From a virus, in IMG/VR virus record IMGVR_UViG_3300030419_001767, positions 1-22,386 of that record: a stretch of DNA of 22,386 bases; one strand, 5' to 3'. Positions 3,013-9,997 of this stretch are shown piece after piece. The translations under genes and the position numbers were made by a program. A model generated the notes under the pieces. That model worked only from the letters and a program-made list of their open reading frames with translations. It made no database searches and was not told where the DNA came from. Position 1 is the first letter of the stretch. Every line of letters begins with the position of its first letter.

Positions 3013-5823
3013 ATGTCAGTTAAAAAGTTTAGATTTGTATCTCCCGGTGTATTCATCAACGAGATTGATAATTCACAATTACCCTCCGAGCCAGCACCAG
3101 AAGGACCAACCCTTATCGGTCGCTCGTTGAGAGGACCAGCGCTTCAGCCAGTTCAGGTTGATTCGTTTGAAGAGTTTGTGGATGTTTTTGGACCACCAAT
3201 CGCCGGTACGGAGAACGTAGACGCTTTCAGAAACCCCGGCTTTGGTGCCGCAACATACGCCACCTATGCCGCACAGGCTTGGTTGAGAAATAGCTCAACG
3301 ATTAATTTTGTTCGCTTAATTGGTAAAGAACACCCCAATAAAGAATCTGGTGGCGAAGGTGGCTGGAAGTTGGCTGATTTTAGCAACACTGGCGGCGGCG
3401 CATACGGTCTATTCGTATTCAACTCCTCATCAGCCGGTAACCACACTGGCACGTTAGGTGCAATTATTTACTGTGATAGCGATACCCATGTTCAGGTTAG
3501 TGGCACGGTTCCTAATCTTGTTGGCAGCCGCGCTGCGGCGCTGACCGGCTCAAGCACACTAGTTTCAACCACAAACAACGAAGTTGTTCTTCGTATTGTA
3601 CGAGGCGGCGGGACATTACAACAAAACGTAAGTTTTGACAGAACTTCAAGAAAATATATTCGTAATGTTCTAAACACAGATCCAACAAGAACGACCACGG
3701 CAATTACGCCAACGGCAGACCAAGAAGAATACTTCTTGGGAGAAACTTTTGAAAGAGCGATTGAAGAGGATCTTAGTGGCGTTACAAATATTGCTTTTGC
3801 AATGGCAGTTCCACTAGATAATGGAACAGTTGACGGCGCAGATTTTAATAGAGATTTTGTTATCTCTGAAACTGGTGATGTTATTTCTCAAGACTTATTA
3901 ACCACCTCTGATGACTTCGATCCATCTATAAGTTCGCGAGTTACAAAGCTTTTCAAGTTTGTAAGTTTGCAAACTGGCGAATATGATCAGGGTGCGGTTA
4001 AGATCTCTATTGAAAACATTAGACCAGCCAAAAAGCCCGGTGACTTTGGAACTTTCAATGTTGTTGTTCGCAGAATTGATGATAACGATGCCAAGGTTAA
4101 AGAGGTGGAGAGATACAACTCTGTGAACCTTAACCCCAACTCCCCAAATTACATTGCAGCACAGATTGGTGATCAAAATATTTCTTGGGATAATGACGAG
4201 AGAGTTTACAAATACTATGGTCAATACCCAAACAACTCAAGCTATGTTCGTATGTCAATGGCACAGGCAGTTGATGATGGAACAATTGATTCCTCGTTAT
4301 TACCATACGGTTACTACGGACCATCAAAGTTCAAGAATGTAGCATACACATCTGGCTCTTCCTTAACAGCCGGTACAGACTTCTTAACTGGAACAGGTTC
4401 ACTTCCAGCAGCCGCAGCACCCGCTGGCTACGGCGCAGCGGGCGATTTATTGATTGGTAGTCAAGTTGGTCCACTGTTAATTAAGTTCCCTAACGTCCCA
4501 GTGCGTACTACTACGGCTGTTGGCGATGTAAGCAGTCCTCAAGCCGCTTACTTTGGGATGACCACCACAAGAGGCACAGGTTCTACCACTTATGATGAAT
4601 CGCTTCCAGATTTCTTAAGAACAAAGCCCGGTTCATTGAACAACTTTAGCAGTCTCAATAACCTCACGGAGTTCTCACACATCTTTACTCTTGACGACCT
4701 AGAAATATCAAACGGCAATGTGATTTACACTAGTGGCTCAAGAGCAGCAGGCGATTCACTGACGGCAAAGAGCGGTTCTTATTCAATTCTTACTGGCGGT
4801 CTCGCACCAAAAGGTTTCACAATTCCCCTATTCGGTGGCTTCGACGCTATGGATATTACCGAGAAAGACCCCTTTGCAAATCGCAATCTAGACGGACAGA
4901 CCGAGCGCTCAAGCTGCGCTTACCACGCTATGACGGTCGCAATTGATTCAGTCAAAGATCCAGAGATTGTTCAAACAAATGTTCTTTCTGTTCCCGGTGT
5001 AACAACTGCTGGAATTACAGACAAGTTGCTTGATGTTGCCGAGGACAGAGGTGATTGCCTAGCAGTTATCGACTTAGCCGGTGGCTACCAGCCCACCTCC
5101 GAGAACGCCAATGGGTTCTCAGCCCGAGTTGGTTCTGTAAATTCAACGGTCAACACTCTTAATAATAGAGCGATTAACTCCAGTTTTGGTTGCGCTTTCT
5201 ACCCTTGGGTTAGAGTGCAGGACACCTTCTCTGACAGCACAGTTTGGTTACCACCATCAGTTGTAGCAATTGGTGCATTCTCTTTCACAGATAGAAATGC
5301 AGAGCCTTGGTTTGCCCCAGCAGGATTTACCCGTGGCGGTCTAACAAAGGGTGCCGGTGGTCTAAGAGTTCTAGGTGTTGCTGACAGACTTCGTTCAAAG
5401 GACCGTGATGACCTTTACGAAGCAAACATCAACCCAATCGGAACTTTCCCGAACGAGGGTGTTGTCATCTTGGGTCAGAAGACTCTACAGACAACACGTT
5501 CAGCGTTGGACAGAATTAATGTTCGCCGCCTCTTGATTTACACAAAGCGTCAAATCACGGCAGTAGCCAACGATCTACTCTTTGAGCAGAACGTTCCCGA
5601 CACTTGGAATAATTTCCTTTCAAAAGCAGAGCCAATCTTGCGTGATATCAAGGCAGGCTTTGGTCTAGAGGATTACAAGTTGGTTCTCGATGAATCAACA
5701 ACAACCCCCGAGCTTCGCGATAGAAATGTCCTTTATGCAAAGGTTTTCTTGAAGCCAGCAAAGTCAATTGAGTTTATCGCACTTGATTTTGTAATCACAA
5801 ATTCAGCAGCCACATTTGAGTAA
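3013..5823 (+). CDS. 18: Contractile tail sheath protein (gp18-like)
   Basis: A 936-residue protein. The N-terminus (FVSPGVFINEIDNSQ, followed by a G-P-T-L-I-G segment and an F-x-x-F-V-D-V-F-G segment) is the standard start of tail sheath proteins; the extended arm there links neighbouring subunits. The C-terminal domain from about residue 828 (DRINVRRLLIYTKRQITA, then LFEQN, then FLKPAKSIEFIALDF) is the conserved core that surrounds the tube. A TAGGAG ribosome site lies 9 bases before ATG 3013. T4 gp18 has 659 residues; the extra 280 or so fall in the middle (roughly residues 100-600), where sheath proteins carry variable domains facing outward. The tail tube gene follows 16 bases after the stop. 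Identification is secure; the middle domains are not recognised. Confidence 0.93.
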   Translation: MSVKKFRFVSPGVFINEIDNSQLPSEPAPEGPTLIGRSLRGPALQPVQVDSFEEFVDVFGPPIAGTENVDAFRNPGFGAATYATYAAQAWLRNSSTINFVRLIGKEHPNKESGGEGGWKLADFSNTGGGAYGLFVFNSSSAGNHTGTLGAIIYCDSDTHVQVSGTVPNLVGSRAAALTGSSTLVSTTNNEVVLRIVRGGGTLQQNVSFDRTSRKYIRNVLNTDPTRTTTAITPTADQEEYFLGETFERAIEEDLSGVTNIAFAMAVPLDNGTVDGADFNRDFVISETGDVISQDLLTTSDDFDPSISSRVTKLFKFVSLQTGEYDQGAVKISIENIRPAKKPGDFGTFNVVVRRIDDNDAKVKEVERYNSVNLNPNSPNYIAAQIGDQNISWDNDERVYKYYGQYPNNSSYVRMSMAQAVDDGTIDSSLLPYGYYGPSKFKNVAYTSGSSLTAGTDFLTGTGSLPAAAAPAGYGAAGDLLIGSQVGPLLIKFPNVPVRTTTAVGDVSSPQAAYFGMTTTRGTGSTTYDESLPDFLRTKPGSLNNFSSLNNLTEFSHIFTLDDLEISNGNVIYTSGSRAAGDSLTAKSGSYSILTGGLAPKGFTIPLFGGFDAMDITEKDPFANRNLDGQTERSSCAYHAMTVAIDSVKDPEIVQTNVLSVPGVTTAGITDKLLDVAEDRGDCLAVIDLAGGYQPTSENANGFSARVGSVNSTVNTLNNRAINSSFGCAFYPWVRVQDTFSDSTVWLPPSVVAIGAFSFTDRNAEPWFAPAGFTRGGLTKGAGGLRVLGVADRLRSKDRDDLYEANINPIGTFPNEGVVILGQKTLQTTRSALDRINVRRLLIYTKRQITAVANDLLFEQNVPDTWNNFLSKAEPILRDIKAGFGLEDYKLVLDESTTTPELRDRNVLYAKVFLKPAKSIEFIALDFVITNSAATFE

Positions 5824-5839
5824 AAGGAGACAATAAACA

Positions 5840-6340
5840 ATGGCATTTTGGAATTCAGCACAGTTAGAGCCTAAGAAAAGTTATCAATACACGGTAACAA
5901 TGCCCTCTATTGCAGAGCCTTTTCTTATCAAGTCAGCAAAACTTCCTGCTATGGAAGTAGGCACGTTGGAGGCTGACTACACGCAATACAAGTTCTACTA
6001 CCCCGGTAAGGTTACTTGGTCACCAGTAGAGTTTACTATTTATGATGTGGTTGGTGATAGTTCTGTGGCAAAAAAGTTGGTAGATCTATTAAAGAACTCC
6101 GGTGTACAGCAACCCGCAAATTCAAATGATAAAGCAACTCTTTCTAAGGCAGCGCTTGCAGGCAACCTTGGTAACGTTATCATTTCACAGGTTGACACAG
6201 CCGGTAGTATTATTTCAAAGTGGACCCTTACAAACGCTTTTCTAACCAACGCAGATTTTGGTCAGCATGGCTATTCAGATGAAGGGTTGATTGAAGTCAG
6301 CGTCACTCTTCAATATGATTGGGCAGAATACGACGGGTAA
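5840..6340 (+). CDS. 19: Tail tube protein (gp19-like)
   Basis: A 166-residue protein (T4 gp19: 163) immediately after the sheath gene, with AAAAGGAGA about 10 bases before ATG 5840. The pattern is that of tube proteins: an N-terminal F/W-x-x-A segment, then KSAKLPAMEVGTLEADY, then FYYPGKVTWSPVEFTIYD, in which the last strand includes the conserved W-x-P-V/I-x-F-T-I-x-D. The C-terminus reads WTLTNAFLTNADFGQ and then VSVTLQYDWAEY, the usual closing strands. Subunits stack as hexamers to make the inner tube through which DNA passes and which the sheath drives into the cell. The strong ribosome site suits a protein made in well over a hundred copies. Confident. Confidence 0.88.
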   Translation: MAFWNSAQLEPKKSYQYTVTMPSIAEPFLIKSAKLPAMEVGTLEADYTQYKFYYPGKVTWSPVEFTIYDVVGDSSVAKKLVDLLKNSGVQQPANSNDKATLSKAALAGNLGNVIISQVDTAGSIISKWTLTNAFLTNADFGQHGYSDEGLIEVSVTLQYDWAEYDG

Positions 6341-6364: not shown

Positions 6365-7210
6365 ATGAGTGCAAGAAATGAAGAAAAACTGGGTTCGTCC
6401 TTAGAGCCTTCAGTTCAGTCCCGAGCGGCTACACCACCCCCTGCTAACAGCATACTAAACTTTCCAACCCCAACAGAATTTGTAGAACTTCCCTCTGGTG
6501 GTAAATACTATCCAGAGGGTCATCCTTTACACGGGGTTGAGAGCGTTGAAATAAAAATAATGACAGCAAAGGAAGAAGACATTCTCATTAACGAAAGTTA
6601 TTTACGAGAAGGTGTTGCTGTTGAAAAACTTTTAAAAAGTGTTTTGATCGATAGAAGTTTAAAACTAGAAGATTTTTTGATTGGTGATAAAAATGCTATC
6701 TTATTTGCAACAAGAATTTCTGGACTAGGACCACACTATGGTGTAAATCTAGGTTGTGGGGCTTGTGGTGCAAAACAAGAAAAAACAATCGATCTAAGAG
6801 AAGTCGAACATAAAGATTGCTTTTATGATAATGTTGACCAAACTGAAAAAGGAACATTTATAACGACATTGCCAACCACTGGTCTTAATGTTGAATTTAA
6901 ATTGTTGAGTGGTCATGAAGAAAAAAGCATTGAAGAGACCATGAAAAAAAGGAAAAAATATAAAGTTGAACAAGAACGTTTGCTTTATATGATGGAACTT
7001 ATGGTCCAAAGTATAAATGGCGTTGAAGACCGCTCACAAATTAGAGCCTGTCTGTCCAGAATCCCAGCCAGTGATTGTAGACACTTAAGAAAAACATATG
7101 AAAGGGTTTGTCCAGATGTTGACATTAATCACGAATACTCCTGTTCAGAGTGTGGTCACACACAGGAGGTGATAATGCCGCTCACGGCAGACTTTTTTTG
7201 GTCTAAGTGA
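6365..7210 (+). CDS. 26: Tail/baseplate assembly chaperone, short form (T4 gp26 family), zinc ribbon
   Basis: A 281-residue protein with AAGAGGA before ATG 6365. FVELPSGGKYYPEGHPL (39-55), then V-E-I-K-x-M-T-A-K-E-E-D-I-L (61-74), then LIDRSLKLEDFLIGDKN (94-110) follow the pattern of the T4 baseplate protein family that includes gp26. Two CxxC pairs, C131/C134 and C260/C263, look like a four-cysteine zinc ribbon. It ends PLTADFFWSK; the family commonly ends in an F-F-W segment. It lies between the tube gene and the tape measure, the usual place of tail assembly chaperones. The 3' end carries a run of seven T (7193-7199), and a 66-codon frame without a start codon continues from there, so a longer product by frameshifting is likely. 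Whether it acts as a chaperone or a hub component is not decided by sequence. Confidence 0.75.
   Translation: MSARNEEKLGSSLEPSVQSRAATPPPANSILNFPTPTEFVELPSGGKYYPEGHPLHGVESVEIKIMTAKEEDILINESYLREGVAVEKLLKSVLIDRSLKLEDFLIGDKNAILFATRISGLGPHYGVNLGCGACGAKQEKTIDLREVEHKDCFYDNVDQTEKGTFITTLPTTGLNVEFKLLSGHEEKSIEETMKKRKKYKVEQERLLYMMELMVQSINGVEDRSQIRACLSRIPASDCRHLRKTYERVCPDVDINHEYSCSECGHTQEVIMPLTADFFWSK
7192..7199 (+). other. Probable programmed frameshift site (C TTTTTTT)
   Basis: In the frame of the upstream gene the codons are GAC TTT TTT TGG TCT AAG TGA. A +1 (or -2) slip on the T run moves the ribosome into the frame GGT CTA AGT GAT GAG, which stays open to TAG 7395-7397. A -1 slip meets TAA at 7204-7206 almost at once, so it would not be useful. 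The stop codon of the short form lies only 9 bases beyond the run. Confidence 0.65.
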
Positions 7211-7397
7211 TGAGTATGGCAAACAAGTATATGAGGTTATCTTCTATCTTGTTTATTACGCTGGCATAAGTTTTACAGAGGCTTACAACTTTCCTATTGG
7301 TCTCAGAAATTATATGTTTGAGAGACTTCAGAAAGAACTAGAAGAAAAAAACAAAGCAATACAAAAAGCCTCCGGTAAGAAAACCCACAAGTTTTAG
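7197..7397 (+). CDS. Frameshift-encoded C-terminal extension of the tail assembly chaperone
   Basis: This frame encodes about 66 residues, beginning FGLSDEYGKQVYEV and continuing through IFYLVYYAGISFTEAYNFPI, then GLRNYMFERLQKELEEKNKA, and ending KKTHKF. It has no ATG, GTG or TTG until Met at 7311, two thirds of the way through the helical region, and stop codons close it upstream at 7170-7175. It therefore has no start of its own and is best read as the tail of a fusion made by a +1/-2 slip at 7192-7199. The pattern (acidic/aromatic helix, then a Y-N-x-P-x-x-L-R turn, then a charged helix) resembles the small protein or extension that follows gp26-like proteins in other T4-type phages. Two-length chaperones just before the tape measure are common in long-tailed phages. 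An alternative is a one-base sequencing error in the T run, which would give a plain fusion. Confidence 0.68.
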   Translation, partial: FGLSDEYGKQVYEVIFYLVYYAGISFTEAYNFPIGLRNYMFERLQKELEEKNKAIQKASGKKTHKF

Positions 7398-7453
7398 CGG
7401 GTAGTATTTGCTTAAACGGGACTACTTACTCTAGGAGCAGGAGTATAGTTACC

Positions 7454-7768
7454 ATGAAAGAACCCGTTGTTATTAATTTAAACGAAAAAAGAATAGATGA
7501 ATCTTGGATGTCTCAATTTGGCGCACAAATTAAATTTATGTTGGCGCAGATGGGCTTTGCACCACTAGGTGGCTCCAATATTAAGATTCGCGGACTCCCT
7601 TCTCAGATTGGCGCATTTATGGGCGCACTTCAGGGCGAGCGTGCTTATATGGACGCTGCAAAAACCTATGGTCTAACTAATCCAAAAACATATAAAAGCA
7701 AGGTCGGTCTAAATCAAGCAATTAGAAATTTTGAACGAGCCACGGGCATCAAATATCCAATTAAATAA
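7454..7768 (+). CDS. Small protein before the tape measure, function unknown
   Basis: A 104-residue protein preceded by two overlapping ribosome sites (AGGAGCAGGAG, 7433-7443) 10 bases before ATG 7454, so it should be translated well. It starts MKEPVVINLNEKRIDESW, followed by an amphipathic helix (SQFGAQIKFMLAQMG), a glycine-rich turn and SQIGAFMGALQGERAYMDAA, and ends with a basic segment (about 80-104). There is no signal peptide or clear membrane segment. It sits between the chaperone frameshift cassette and the tape measure, 9 bases before the latter, which suggests a part in tail-core assembly or a small structural component. I do not recognise the family. Confidence 0.65.
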   Translation: MKEPVVINLNEKRIDESWMSQFGAQIKFMLAQMGFAPLGGSNIKIRGLPSQIGAFMGALQGERAYMDAAKTYGLTNPKTYKSKVGLNQAIRNFERATGIKYPIK

Positions 7769-7777
7769 TTTTAAGAT

Positions 7778-9997
7778 ATGGCTACAGAAGAACAAGTAAA
7801 AACTCTGGAACAAGAACTGGCTTTACTCAAAGTCAGGAATAAGGTTTTAGGTGAGTTTAGAAGCGAACAAGAATTGGCAGCAGAAGCCGCACGAATTCGT
7901 TTAAGCTTTATTGAAAAAGAAAAGAAAGAATTAACTGAAAAACTAGGGTTTTTGCAAGAGGCAAGAGATACAGCCACCGCAACTAAGGAAGAAACCGAGG
8001 AAGAATATCAAAATCTTAAAAGGCAACTCCAAGCACTCAATGAAAAAGCAGCAAAAGAGCAAAAAATACTCGATATACAGGTAAAACAGAAAGAAGCCCA
8101 AGAAGCCATAAAAGATCTCACAAGCACGACTGCCGGTAACCTTAAAAACATGGCTGGGCAAATGGGTCTGCTCGCTGCTGAAACCGATCCGTTTGTAAGA
8201 CAGTTTAAAAGTTTTGGTAATGCCCTTCAAAAATCTGTAAAAAACGGAGAAGGCTTGAAAGGTGCGCTAAAGGGTGTTGGCAAGGGAATTGGTGACGCTG
8301 CTAAAGATATATTCAGTTTTAGCAATATGATGGGCTTGGTCGGCGGTGGCGCACTGGAAACTTCCGCAGAGTTAATTAATGCGGATAAGGCGTTGGTCCA
8401 ATTTGGCTTGTCAGCTAGTAAATCAAAAGAAGTTACCAGAGCAACAAGCGCAGAGTTTATCAAAGCAGGTGGTTCGGTTGATGAGTTGGCAACGGCATTT
8501 TCAGCACTTTCTGATACTTCTGGTTTGCTTGCTAAAAGATTGGGACCACAGTTTGCAAACCGTTTAGCGCTACTGAACAAAACAGGATTGGATACTGCAA
8601 GTTCAACTGAAATTCTAAACGAAGCAATGATACGAGAAGGAATGACCGCAGTTGAAGCTCAAGACCGCTTAGGTGATTTGGTAAAAATTTCTAGAGATTT
8701 AGGCGAGCCTGTGGGCAAGGCAGCAAAAGAATTTACACAGTTTGGCTCGCAAATTAAAAAAGTCGGTCCTGCTGCCGTAAAAGAGTTCGCAAAACTAAAA
8801 GCAATATCCGCATCAACCGGGGTTGAAATAAGTAAATTAATTTCAATCAGTGAGGGCTTCACAACATTTGAGGATGCTGCAAGAGCAACACAACAATTAA
8901 ATCTTGTGCTAGGAACAAACCTAAGCTCAGTTCAATTAATGAATATGTCCGAATCAGAAAGAGTGGAGACAATTCAAAGAGCAATCCGCGCACAGGGTGG
9001 ATTAGAAAGCCTAAATCAACACCAAATCAGATTACTTGAAGATTCGATTCCCGGTAATTTAAAATTAACGGAAATAATGGGATTGCAAAATGAAGTGAGC
9101 GTCGATGCAACAGATACCACGAAAGACAACAACGAAGAACTTAATAAACAAGAAAAACAATTTCAAAAAGTTATGAGCGCTTCAGAAGCGATGGCTGCAA
9201 ATATGAAGGCAGCAACATTAGAGATGGGCAAGGGTCTTGCAAAAGTATCTCAGTCGATTGGTGGTACGGTCAGTGGTCTGTCCACACTTACCACTATGAT
9301 AGGTGTTGGTCTTGTTTCTGTTGTCTCGCTTGCAGCGTTCGCTTTCACAACTTTTGGCGGTGCAATGGCTACCGCTGGTCCTGCCGCTGCACTTGCCGGT
9401 GAAGGCATTGCAGTTGGAGGCACTGCTGCTGGTGGGGGTTTAACTGCTCTCGCTGGAGGAGGCACCGCAGCGATTCCAGTTTTATTAACTATCACGGGAG
9501 TAATTTTAGGTGTAGGCGCAGCCATCGCACTGGTTGTGTCTTCTGTCGCGCTTTTAGTAAAAGCAATTTCTGGAGCAGGAACCGAATCACTCTTGGCATT
9601 TGGTAAAATGATGGCAAATATTGCAATGGCTGTTAACCCAATTGGTATTATCTTCTTGGGTATTGAAAAAATAGTCAAATCAGTATCCGCTGGTATTGTT
9701 AGTGTTGCCAATGCAATCGGTAATTTGATGACCACCACGAAAGGTTTTGGTCTGGGCGACTTGGCAACTTTAACAGCGGTCGGTGGAGCGGTCGCCACCA
9801 TTGCCAGCAATTTAGATGATGTGTCGCTACCAAAGCTTAAACAAATGAACACCTTGGTTAACTCCTCGCTCACCGCCGCAACCGGAGTAGGTTCAGGCGG
9901 TGGTGCTAAAACAATCACTGTTAATCTAACCCTTGATGGCAAGGTTTTAGATAGAAAAATCATTAGCACAACCAACGGGGCTTTAGTTAAGCCGTAA
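7778..9997 (+). CDS. Tail tape measure protein (gp29-like by position)
   Basis: A 739-residue protein. Residues 1-115 are a charged coiled coil rich in Glu, Lys, Gln and Ala. A long helical middle (about 150-490) is Ala/Gly/Ser/Lys rich. Three hydrophobic stretches follow at about 494-545, 565-597 and 607-635. The C-terminus has a glycine-rich turn and a short beta hairpin (TITVNLTLDGKVLDRKII). Coiled coil plus hydrophobic segments, position after the chaperone and being the longest helical protein in the module are typical of tape measures, which set tail length and can enter the host membrane during injection. The rule of thumb of about 0.15 nm per residue gives a tail near 110 nm. The ribosome site is weak, so translation may be coupled to the preceding gene 9 bases upstream. 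Confidence 0.8.
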   Translation: MATEEQVKTLEQELALLKVRNKVLGEFRSEQELAAEAARIRLSFIEKEKKELTEKLGFLQEARDTATATKEETEEEYQNLKRQLQALNEKAAKEQKILDIQVKQKEAQEAIKDLTSTTAGNLKNMAGQMGLLAAETDPFVRQFKSFGNALQKSVKNGEGLKGALKGVGKGIGDAAKDIFSFSNMMGLVGGGALETSAELINADKALVQFGLSASKSKEVTRATSAEFIKAGGSVDELATAFSALSDTSGLLAKRLGPQFANRLALLNKTGLDTASSTEILNEAMIREGMTAVEAQDRLGDLVKISRDLGEPVGKAAKEFTQFGSQIKKVGPAAVKEFAKLKAISASTGVEISKLISISEGFTTFEDAARATQQLNLVLGTNLSSVQLMNMSESERVETIQRAIRAQGGLESLNQHQIRLLEDSIPGNLKLTEIMGLQNEVSVDATDTTKDNNEELNKQEKQFQKVMSASEAMAANMKAATLEMGKGLAKVSQSIGGTVSGLSTLTTMIGVGLVSVVSLAAFAFTTFGGAMATAGPAAALAGEGIAVGGTAAGGGLTALAGGGTAAIPVLLTITGVILGVGAAIALVVSSVALLVKAISGAGTESLLAFGKMMANIAMAVNPIGIIFLGIEKIVKSVSAGIVSVANAIGNLMTTTKGFGLGDLATLTAVGGAVATIASNLDDVSLPKLKQMNTLVNSSLTAATGVGSGGGAKTITVNLTLDGKVLDRKIISTTNGALVKP

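Follow-up and report, generated by a model that had tools for sequence, protein, structure and literature searches.

Gene layout and reading frames at the locus

The window, meaning the whole stretch of DNA that we analysed, is a virus fragment of 22386 bases, and all features described here lie on its plus strand. Genes for a tail sheath protein (3013–5823; phrog_23, 7.9e-66) and a tail tube protein (5840–6340; phrog_4542, 6.7e-17) precede the gene of a gp26-like tail assembly chaperone (6365–7210), whose 281-aa product matches the T4_baseplate family over the whole domain (PF12322, 6.5e-13, profile positions 6–219 of 219) as well as the baseplate hub family phrog_150 (1e-14). Next come an ORF of 104 aa (7454–7768), for which Pfam and PHROG searches gave no match and whose family is unknown, and the gene of a probable tape measure protein of 739 aa (7778–9997), an assignment that rests on a weak Pfam match to TMP_3 (E 0.0037, below the cut-off) and on its position after the chaperone.

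The chaperone gene ends with GCA GAC TTT TTT TGG TCT AAG TGA (...PLTADFFWSK*), the stop codon TGA lying at 7208–7210. A C at 7192 is followed by seven T at 7193–7199 and then by GG, so that the putative slip site, TTT TTT TGG, spans 7193–7201. The −1 frame meets a TAA at 7204–7206. The frame that either a +1 or a −2 shift would reach is closed on its 5′ side by TGA TAA at 7170–7175 and stays open as far as the TAG at 7395–7397. Its extension beyond the slip site (GLSDEYGKQVYEVIFYLVYYAGISFTEAYNFPIGLRNYMFERLQKELEEKNKAIQKASGKKTHKF; 7200–7397, 66 codons, giving 65 aa past the junction, GLSDEYGK...KTHKF*) contains no ATG, GTG or TTG before its conserved core. Re-reading the sequence confirmed the positions that a first-pass annotation of this DNA had given for the T run, the stops and the open frame; its estimate of about 345 residues for the joined product becomes 343 aa for a +1 shift, or 344 aa for a −2 shift. 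Two conserved elements upstream of the slip site had not been remarked on, namely an internal Shine-Dalgarno-like AGGAGGT (7164–7170), which ends 23 nt before the first T, and a hairpin, TGCCG-CTCA-CGGCA (7176–7189), located 3 nt 5′ of the slip site, whose role as a +1 stimulator is an inference.

In shuffles of the window, an open frame as long as the extension has a probability of about 0.004. About one T7GG per window is expected by chance, and because the motif by itself is so common the weight of the argument comes from its conservation in relatives. An ATG at 7175, preceded by AGGAGG, could plausibly serve the window as an internal start in the 0 frame, but it is not conserved. On the 3′ side of the extension, at 7399–7450 and also in loci L002 and L003, we observed a conserved non-coding sequence, TGCTTAAACG..ACTACTTA.TCTAGGAG.AGGAG, ahead of the next gene.

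Conservation of the +1 extension

Two IMG/VR contigs with 76% protein identity keep TTT TTT TGG in the same codon phase together with an open +1 extension, and the same site, phase and extension are found in 10 further contigs at only 35% protein identity. A profile search yielded 80 viral loci and 17 loci from MAGs. Altogether the +1 extension was found in about 114 analysed loci, and removal of loci above 85% identity left a non-redundant set of 97, in which the median length of the extension is 67 codons. Two positive DNA-pattern scans gave 175 loci, part of which overlap those from the protein search; all 169 complete extensions among them have at least 55 codons, lie in the +1 frame and carry the P...R motif. 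Substitutions in the extension fall on +1-frame codon positions 1, 2 and 3 at 30, 17 and 53%, a coding-like distribution that indicates coding selection on the extension, which forms a conserved protein family (alignment A2). The first-pass annotation had proposed a comparison with relatives, and in relatives only about 35% identical in protein the T run and the frame offset do recur, as does the absence of any needed start.

These data bear on what had been named as the main alternative, a one-base homopolymer error, and equally on a broken gene (pseudogene). Homopolymers are in general error-prone in sequencing, and no result here points to an error. The shift layout is shared by the 97 non-redundant loci, from many assemblies and including cultured phages (Mel-JY01, immuto), and the extension evolves as a coding sequence. 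The 97 independent loci exclude the error as the main alternative, and we regard any remaining chance of an error or a pseudogene as negligible.

Cultured and named relatives carry the +1 extension behind various sites: the same T7GG site in Microcystis phage Mel-JY01, TTT CTT TGG in Flavobacterium phage immuto (TTTCTTTGG), TTT TTT CAC in Bacillus phage SP-15, TTT TTT AGT in Listeria phage LIS04, TTC TTT CGT in Streptococcus phage GXN1 and TTT CTA TTC in the huge phage LR756508. A direct sequence search with the extension in phage records returned one match only. As to how the records treat the extension, it is annotated in Mel-JY01 (L015, 3740–3976) as a gene with a start inside the chaperone gene, the hypothetical gene SP15_046 (2330–2449) of SP-15 (KT624200; L021, 2228–2449) is an internal fragment of it, and in the records of immuto and LIS04 it is unannotated.

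The proposed slip site and the direction of the shift

If a ribosome slips at this site, the second codon of the slip site would be in the P site, and among the 97 loci this codon is TTT in 91, CTT in five, CTA in one and TTC in none. Elsewhere in the gene TTC makes up 24% of the Phe codons, against 0 of 91 at the P site (P ~1.5e-11). The A-site codon is TGG in 90 of the 97 loci. IMG/VR was scanned three times with patterns fixed solely by GGAGGTNCCNNT upstream and TGGCCT downstream, and thus unbiased toward the P-site codon; the scans found TTYTTT at least 120 times, TTYCTT 55 times and TTYTTC, which has the synonymous but non-slippery codon, not at all. A fourth scan, which allowed any TTY YTV, gave eight matches, all of them TTT CTA TGG, and in all eight the extension is still in the +1 frame, read as F-Y-G-L; these loci would fit a slip from UUU to UUC one codon earlier. 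Slippage one codon earlier is also needed in LIS04 and LR756508.

The first-pass annotation had left open whether the shift is +1 or −2. A −2 shift of the ribosome, known from phage Mu, lands in the same frame as +1 and reaches the extension with one extra Phe, and the seven T of the window would permit it. The frame offset is however unchanged in the TTC CTT TGG loci (L083 and L084) and in the TTT CTA TGG loci, and as neither site allows −2 re-pairing a −2 shift is excluded; the 55 CTT loci from IMG/VR also speak against it. We therefore favor +1 and consider −2 very improbable. Equally improbable, in our judgment, is that RNA polymerase slips on the T run, so that some mRNAs with six T are read straight through. 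Seven T behind a hairpin do form a terminator-like context that could promote such slippage, but the T run is kept in a fixed codon phase without lengthening, and dozens of relatives with an interrupted run (TTTCTTT, TTCCTTT, TTTCTA) have the same +1 extension; the CTT variants, which break up the homopolymer, exclude transcriptional slippage on it. They also qualify the earlier description of a poly-T site: the T run does recur, but since CTT interrupts it the conserved property is a P-site codon that is slippery in the +1 direction.

Nearly every variant could be accounted for by a single type of event, in which a tRNA paired with UUU or CUU in the P site shifts onto the overlapping +1 triplet as UGG, CGN or CUA occupies the A site. 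Both CUU_U and UUU_U are known to be prone to +1 shifts (PRFect paper, PMC10885494), and UUU_CGU is reported to be the site of influenza PA-X (PMC3498833). The best reading of the site comparison is thus +1 slippage of the P-site tRNA at YUU_UGG, although ribosomal slippage in vivo is inferred.

Conserved elements upstream of the proposed slip site

The motif GGAGGT lies within 45 nt upstream of the site in 63 of the 97 loci, against 11.9 (at most 20) when the sequences are randomised synonymously with the protein preserved. Of the 63 Glu-Val pairs that lie within 36 nt of the site, 61 are encoded as GGAGGT, against 2 of 142 elsewhere in the gene. In most cases 17 or 23 nt separate the 3′ end of the motif from the first T, and the hairpin is located between the motif and the slip site. 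For the 18 nt before the site (−18 to −1) the mean minimum free energy is −3.90 kcal/mol, compared with −1.29 in synonymous controls (z −17.9); most other windows of the gene give a folding signal close to zero, apart from lesser signals next to the site and within the extension. When the ungapped stack was run through RNAalifold, no consensus structure emerged because the hairpin occupies at least two registers, and tests per sequence and per register were used in place of the consensus. In the first register (stem of −17 to −13 with −8 to −4, loop of 4) at least four pairs form in 22 loci against 1.3 expected, with stems such as TGCCG/CGGCA, TACCG/CGGTA and TGCCC/GGGCA, which represent compensatory changes; the second register is found in nine loci against 0.8 expected. 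A search of Rfam returned nothing beyond a chance match that stayed below threshold.

As judged from these comparisons, the GGAGGT motif and the hairpin are under strong selection, and we infer that they probably stimulate the +1 shift. They are not obligatory, since there are loci, for example L086, L093 and L103, with neither GGAGGT nor a predicted hairpin. When the 101 nt at 7160–7260 of the window are folded freely, a structure other than the local hairpin has the minimum energy, and the hairpin would thus have to refold as the ribosome moves on ahead of it. A hairpin adjoining the E site stimulates +1 frameshifting at CUUUGA on 70S ribosomes and mimics a Shine-Dalgarno duplex (PMC6321510). 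The least certain step is the part played by the SD-like motif, which may add pausing or may come nearer to the decoding site once the hairpin folds.

Alternatively, the hairpin and the T run could act ahead of the tape measure gene as an intrinsic terminator or attenuator rather than as a frameshift stimulator. The stem of the window was also picked up by a terminator scan, and the pattern at 7176–7199 is terminator-like. We nevertheless find this unlikely, as the stem has merely 4–5 pairs and ends 1–4 nt ahead of the run, many relatives interrupt the T run, and a terminator would leave both GGAGGT and the +1 ORF unexplained.

The strong SD-like motif upstream of the extension could also suggest that the extension is a separate protein with a start of its own, perhaps a non-canonical one, driven by GGAGGT. 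Some ATG, GTG or TTG is present upstream in the +1 frame in 62 of the 97 loci, and the annotation of Mel-JY01 treats the extension as its own gene. Against this, the conserved core is not preceded by any start codon in the remaining 35 loci, and the window is one of them, which bears out the first-pass observation that the extension lacks a start. Further, the +1-frame codons 5–9 nt past GGAGGT are mostly not start codons, and a separate start does not explain the requirement for YTT at the P-site codon. We hold a separate start to be quite improbable, and prefer the +1 shift.

Protein family and structure

T4 gp26 and T4 gp51 both match T4_baseplate, and gp51 carries an extra tail of about 48 residues. 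AlphaFold2 modelled the fused 343-aa protein with a pLDDT of 89, the extension being predicted as three helices (282–299, 303–307 and 311–337); the folding used alignment A5, in which six residues of each gene-1 row were misplaced. Foldseek matched the model to T4-like baseplate hub assembly proteins and to the SP-15 baseplate hub subunit (best E 4.7e-19). No solved structure was found by sequence search, and Foldseek gave no PDB match below 0.001; in a second look at solved structures the HK97 tail assembly chaperone 2ob9 came first with a weak match (Z 4.6, rmsd 3.6, 81 residues). An hhalign comparison of the extension with the T4 gp51 tail aligned the right regions at a P of only 0.083, and the single-sequence comparison with T4 gp51 was uninformative, so homology between the two is only suggestive. 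That the two products work together as chaperones in assembling tape measure and tube is inferred from family membership and position.

Natural switches and known systems

One relative (L100, 3218–3460) has the Phe codons TTC TTC, and an A AAT TTC heptamer precedes its extension, which is in the −1 frame; in this locus a switch of the shift to −1 appears to have taken place. In the jumbo phages XacN1, RAS14 and PA5oct (L022, L023, L122) and in LR756511 the extensions are also in the −1 frame, preceded by T TTT TTT or T TTT TTC. In the records of XacN1, RAS14 and PA5oct these are not annotated as frameshifts.

The T4 proteins gp26 and gp51 share with the gene described here the T4_baseplate family and the position before the tape measure gene, and the gp51 C-terminal tail aligns at the extension, though only suggestively; in T4 they are encoded by two separate genes on opposite strands, whereas here there is one gene and a +1 shift. 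Vladimirov, Gautam and Davidson (2022) are said, going by the title of their paper, to argue for a non-frameshift mechanism in T4-like phages. As +1, −1 and two-gene solutions are all found, the two chaperone lengths would persist while the means changes. For lambda-type chaperones it has been described that the outcome is kept while the means varies, T4 being the exception, and +1 or −2 versions of frameshifted tail chaperones are known from HSTV-2 and Mu (Atkins et al., 2016; PMC5009743).

As in the lambda gpG/gpGT pair, a short and a long form would come from one start with an out-of-frame extension upstream of the tape measure gene, the conserved slippery site lies at the overlap, and the shift direction varies between relatives; lambda, on the other hand, shifts by −1, and sequence similarity to the gene in the window is not known. 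In the Vandenendeviridae (phage Adele, PMC12846349) a myovirus tail chaperone likewise has a slip site of the poly-T kind close to where TAC-N ends, but the direction is −1 and the site is GTTTTT. The Mu-type re-pairing of the P site two bases back is possible in the window and not in the TTC CTT TGG and TTT CTA TGG relatives. With CUU_UGA of prfB (RF2) the site shares the YUU_U slip codon (UUU_U in the window; TTT or CTT in 96 of the 97 loci), the +1 direction and an upstream SD-like motif. It differs in that the A site of prfB is the stop codon UGA rather than the sense codon UGG of 90 of the 97 loci, in that the SD of prfB lies 3 nt upstream and not 17–23 nt with a hairpin in between, a distance that leaves the role of the SD-like motif unclear, and in that no autoregulation is implied. 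In influenza PA-X tRNA-Phe on UUU is reported to re-pair +1 at UCC_UUU_CGU, which resembles the relatives with TTT CGT or TTT CGG, though the ribosome there is eukaryotic and the gene unrelated (PMC3498833).

Discussion

We are confident that the best explanation of the locus is the production of two tail assembly chaperones from one start by a +1 shift, while pointing out that there are no proteomics, ribosome profiling or reporter data. The comparative evidence supports the first-pass proposal that the chaperone is made in two lengths, the longer one through a shift into the +1 frame. As far as sequence alone can establish them, the layout, the frame, the constraint on the site, the upstream elements and the coding selection on the extension are secure.

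We suggest that the majority of ribosomes would terminate at 7208, releasing a short form of 281 aa (TAC-N, like T4 gp26). The others, a minority, would pause while tRNA-Phe occupies UUU in the P site and a slow UGG stands in the A site, and would slip one base forward, from UUU to UUU, or in some relatives from CUU to UUU. In the window the P-site codon would re-pair from 7196–7198 to 7197–7199, and the 0-frame A-site codon TGG (7199–7201) would be replaced by GGT from 7200. GGAGGU and the hairpin, refolding just behind the E site, would probably promote this forward slip. The shifted ribosome would then continue in the +1 frame and complete a long form of 343 aa (TAC-NC, like T4 gp51), whose C-terminal domain is predicted to be helical and which would contain the junction peptide ADFFGLSDEYGK. 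The ribosomal +1 mechanism, its stimulation by the upstream elements, the ratio of the products and the chaperone function are all inferred, and both proteins are predicted from sequence alone.

A broader proposition is that there exists a natural +1 signal, composed of an internal SD, a hairpin abutting the E site and a sense slip site YUU_UGG, that is widespread in uncultivated T4-like myophages, in which the hairpin pushes the ribosome forward, and that it occurs in one chaperone family where +1, −1 and two-gene solutions replace one another. On this proposition as a whole we are evenly divided. A hairpin upstream that pushes the ribosome forward is otherwise known to us only from synthetic constructs. 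A widespread +1 version in the T4_baseplate family, marked by a conserved SD-hairpin-slip signal, appears to be new; we found no description of it in the open-access papers searched, where the key paper on T4-like phages is available to us by its title only.

The long form is unannotated or split in the public records of cultured relatives, and the layout appears to be present in hundreds of related uncultivated phages. T4-like tail chaperones have been described as an exception to the frameshift rule, but their relatives include a large clade that seems to obey it, in the rare +1 direction. This clade holds hundreds of natural variants of the +1 signal, including swaps of the P-site codon and compensated hairpins, and these could be used to test upstream mRNA structure and SD pairing as drivers of forward slippage on bacterial ribosomes.
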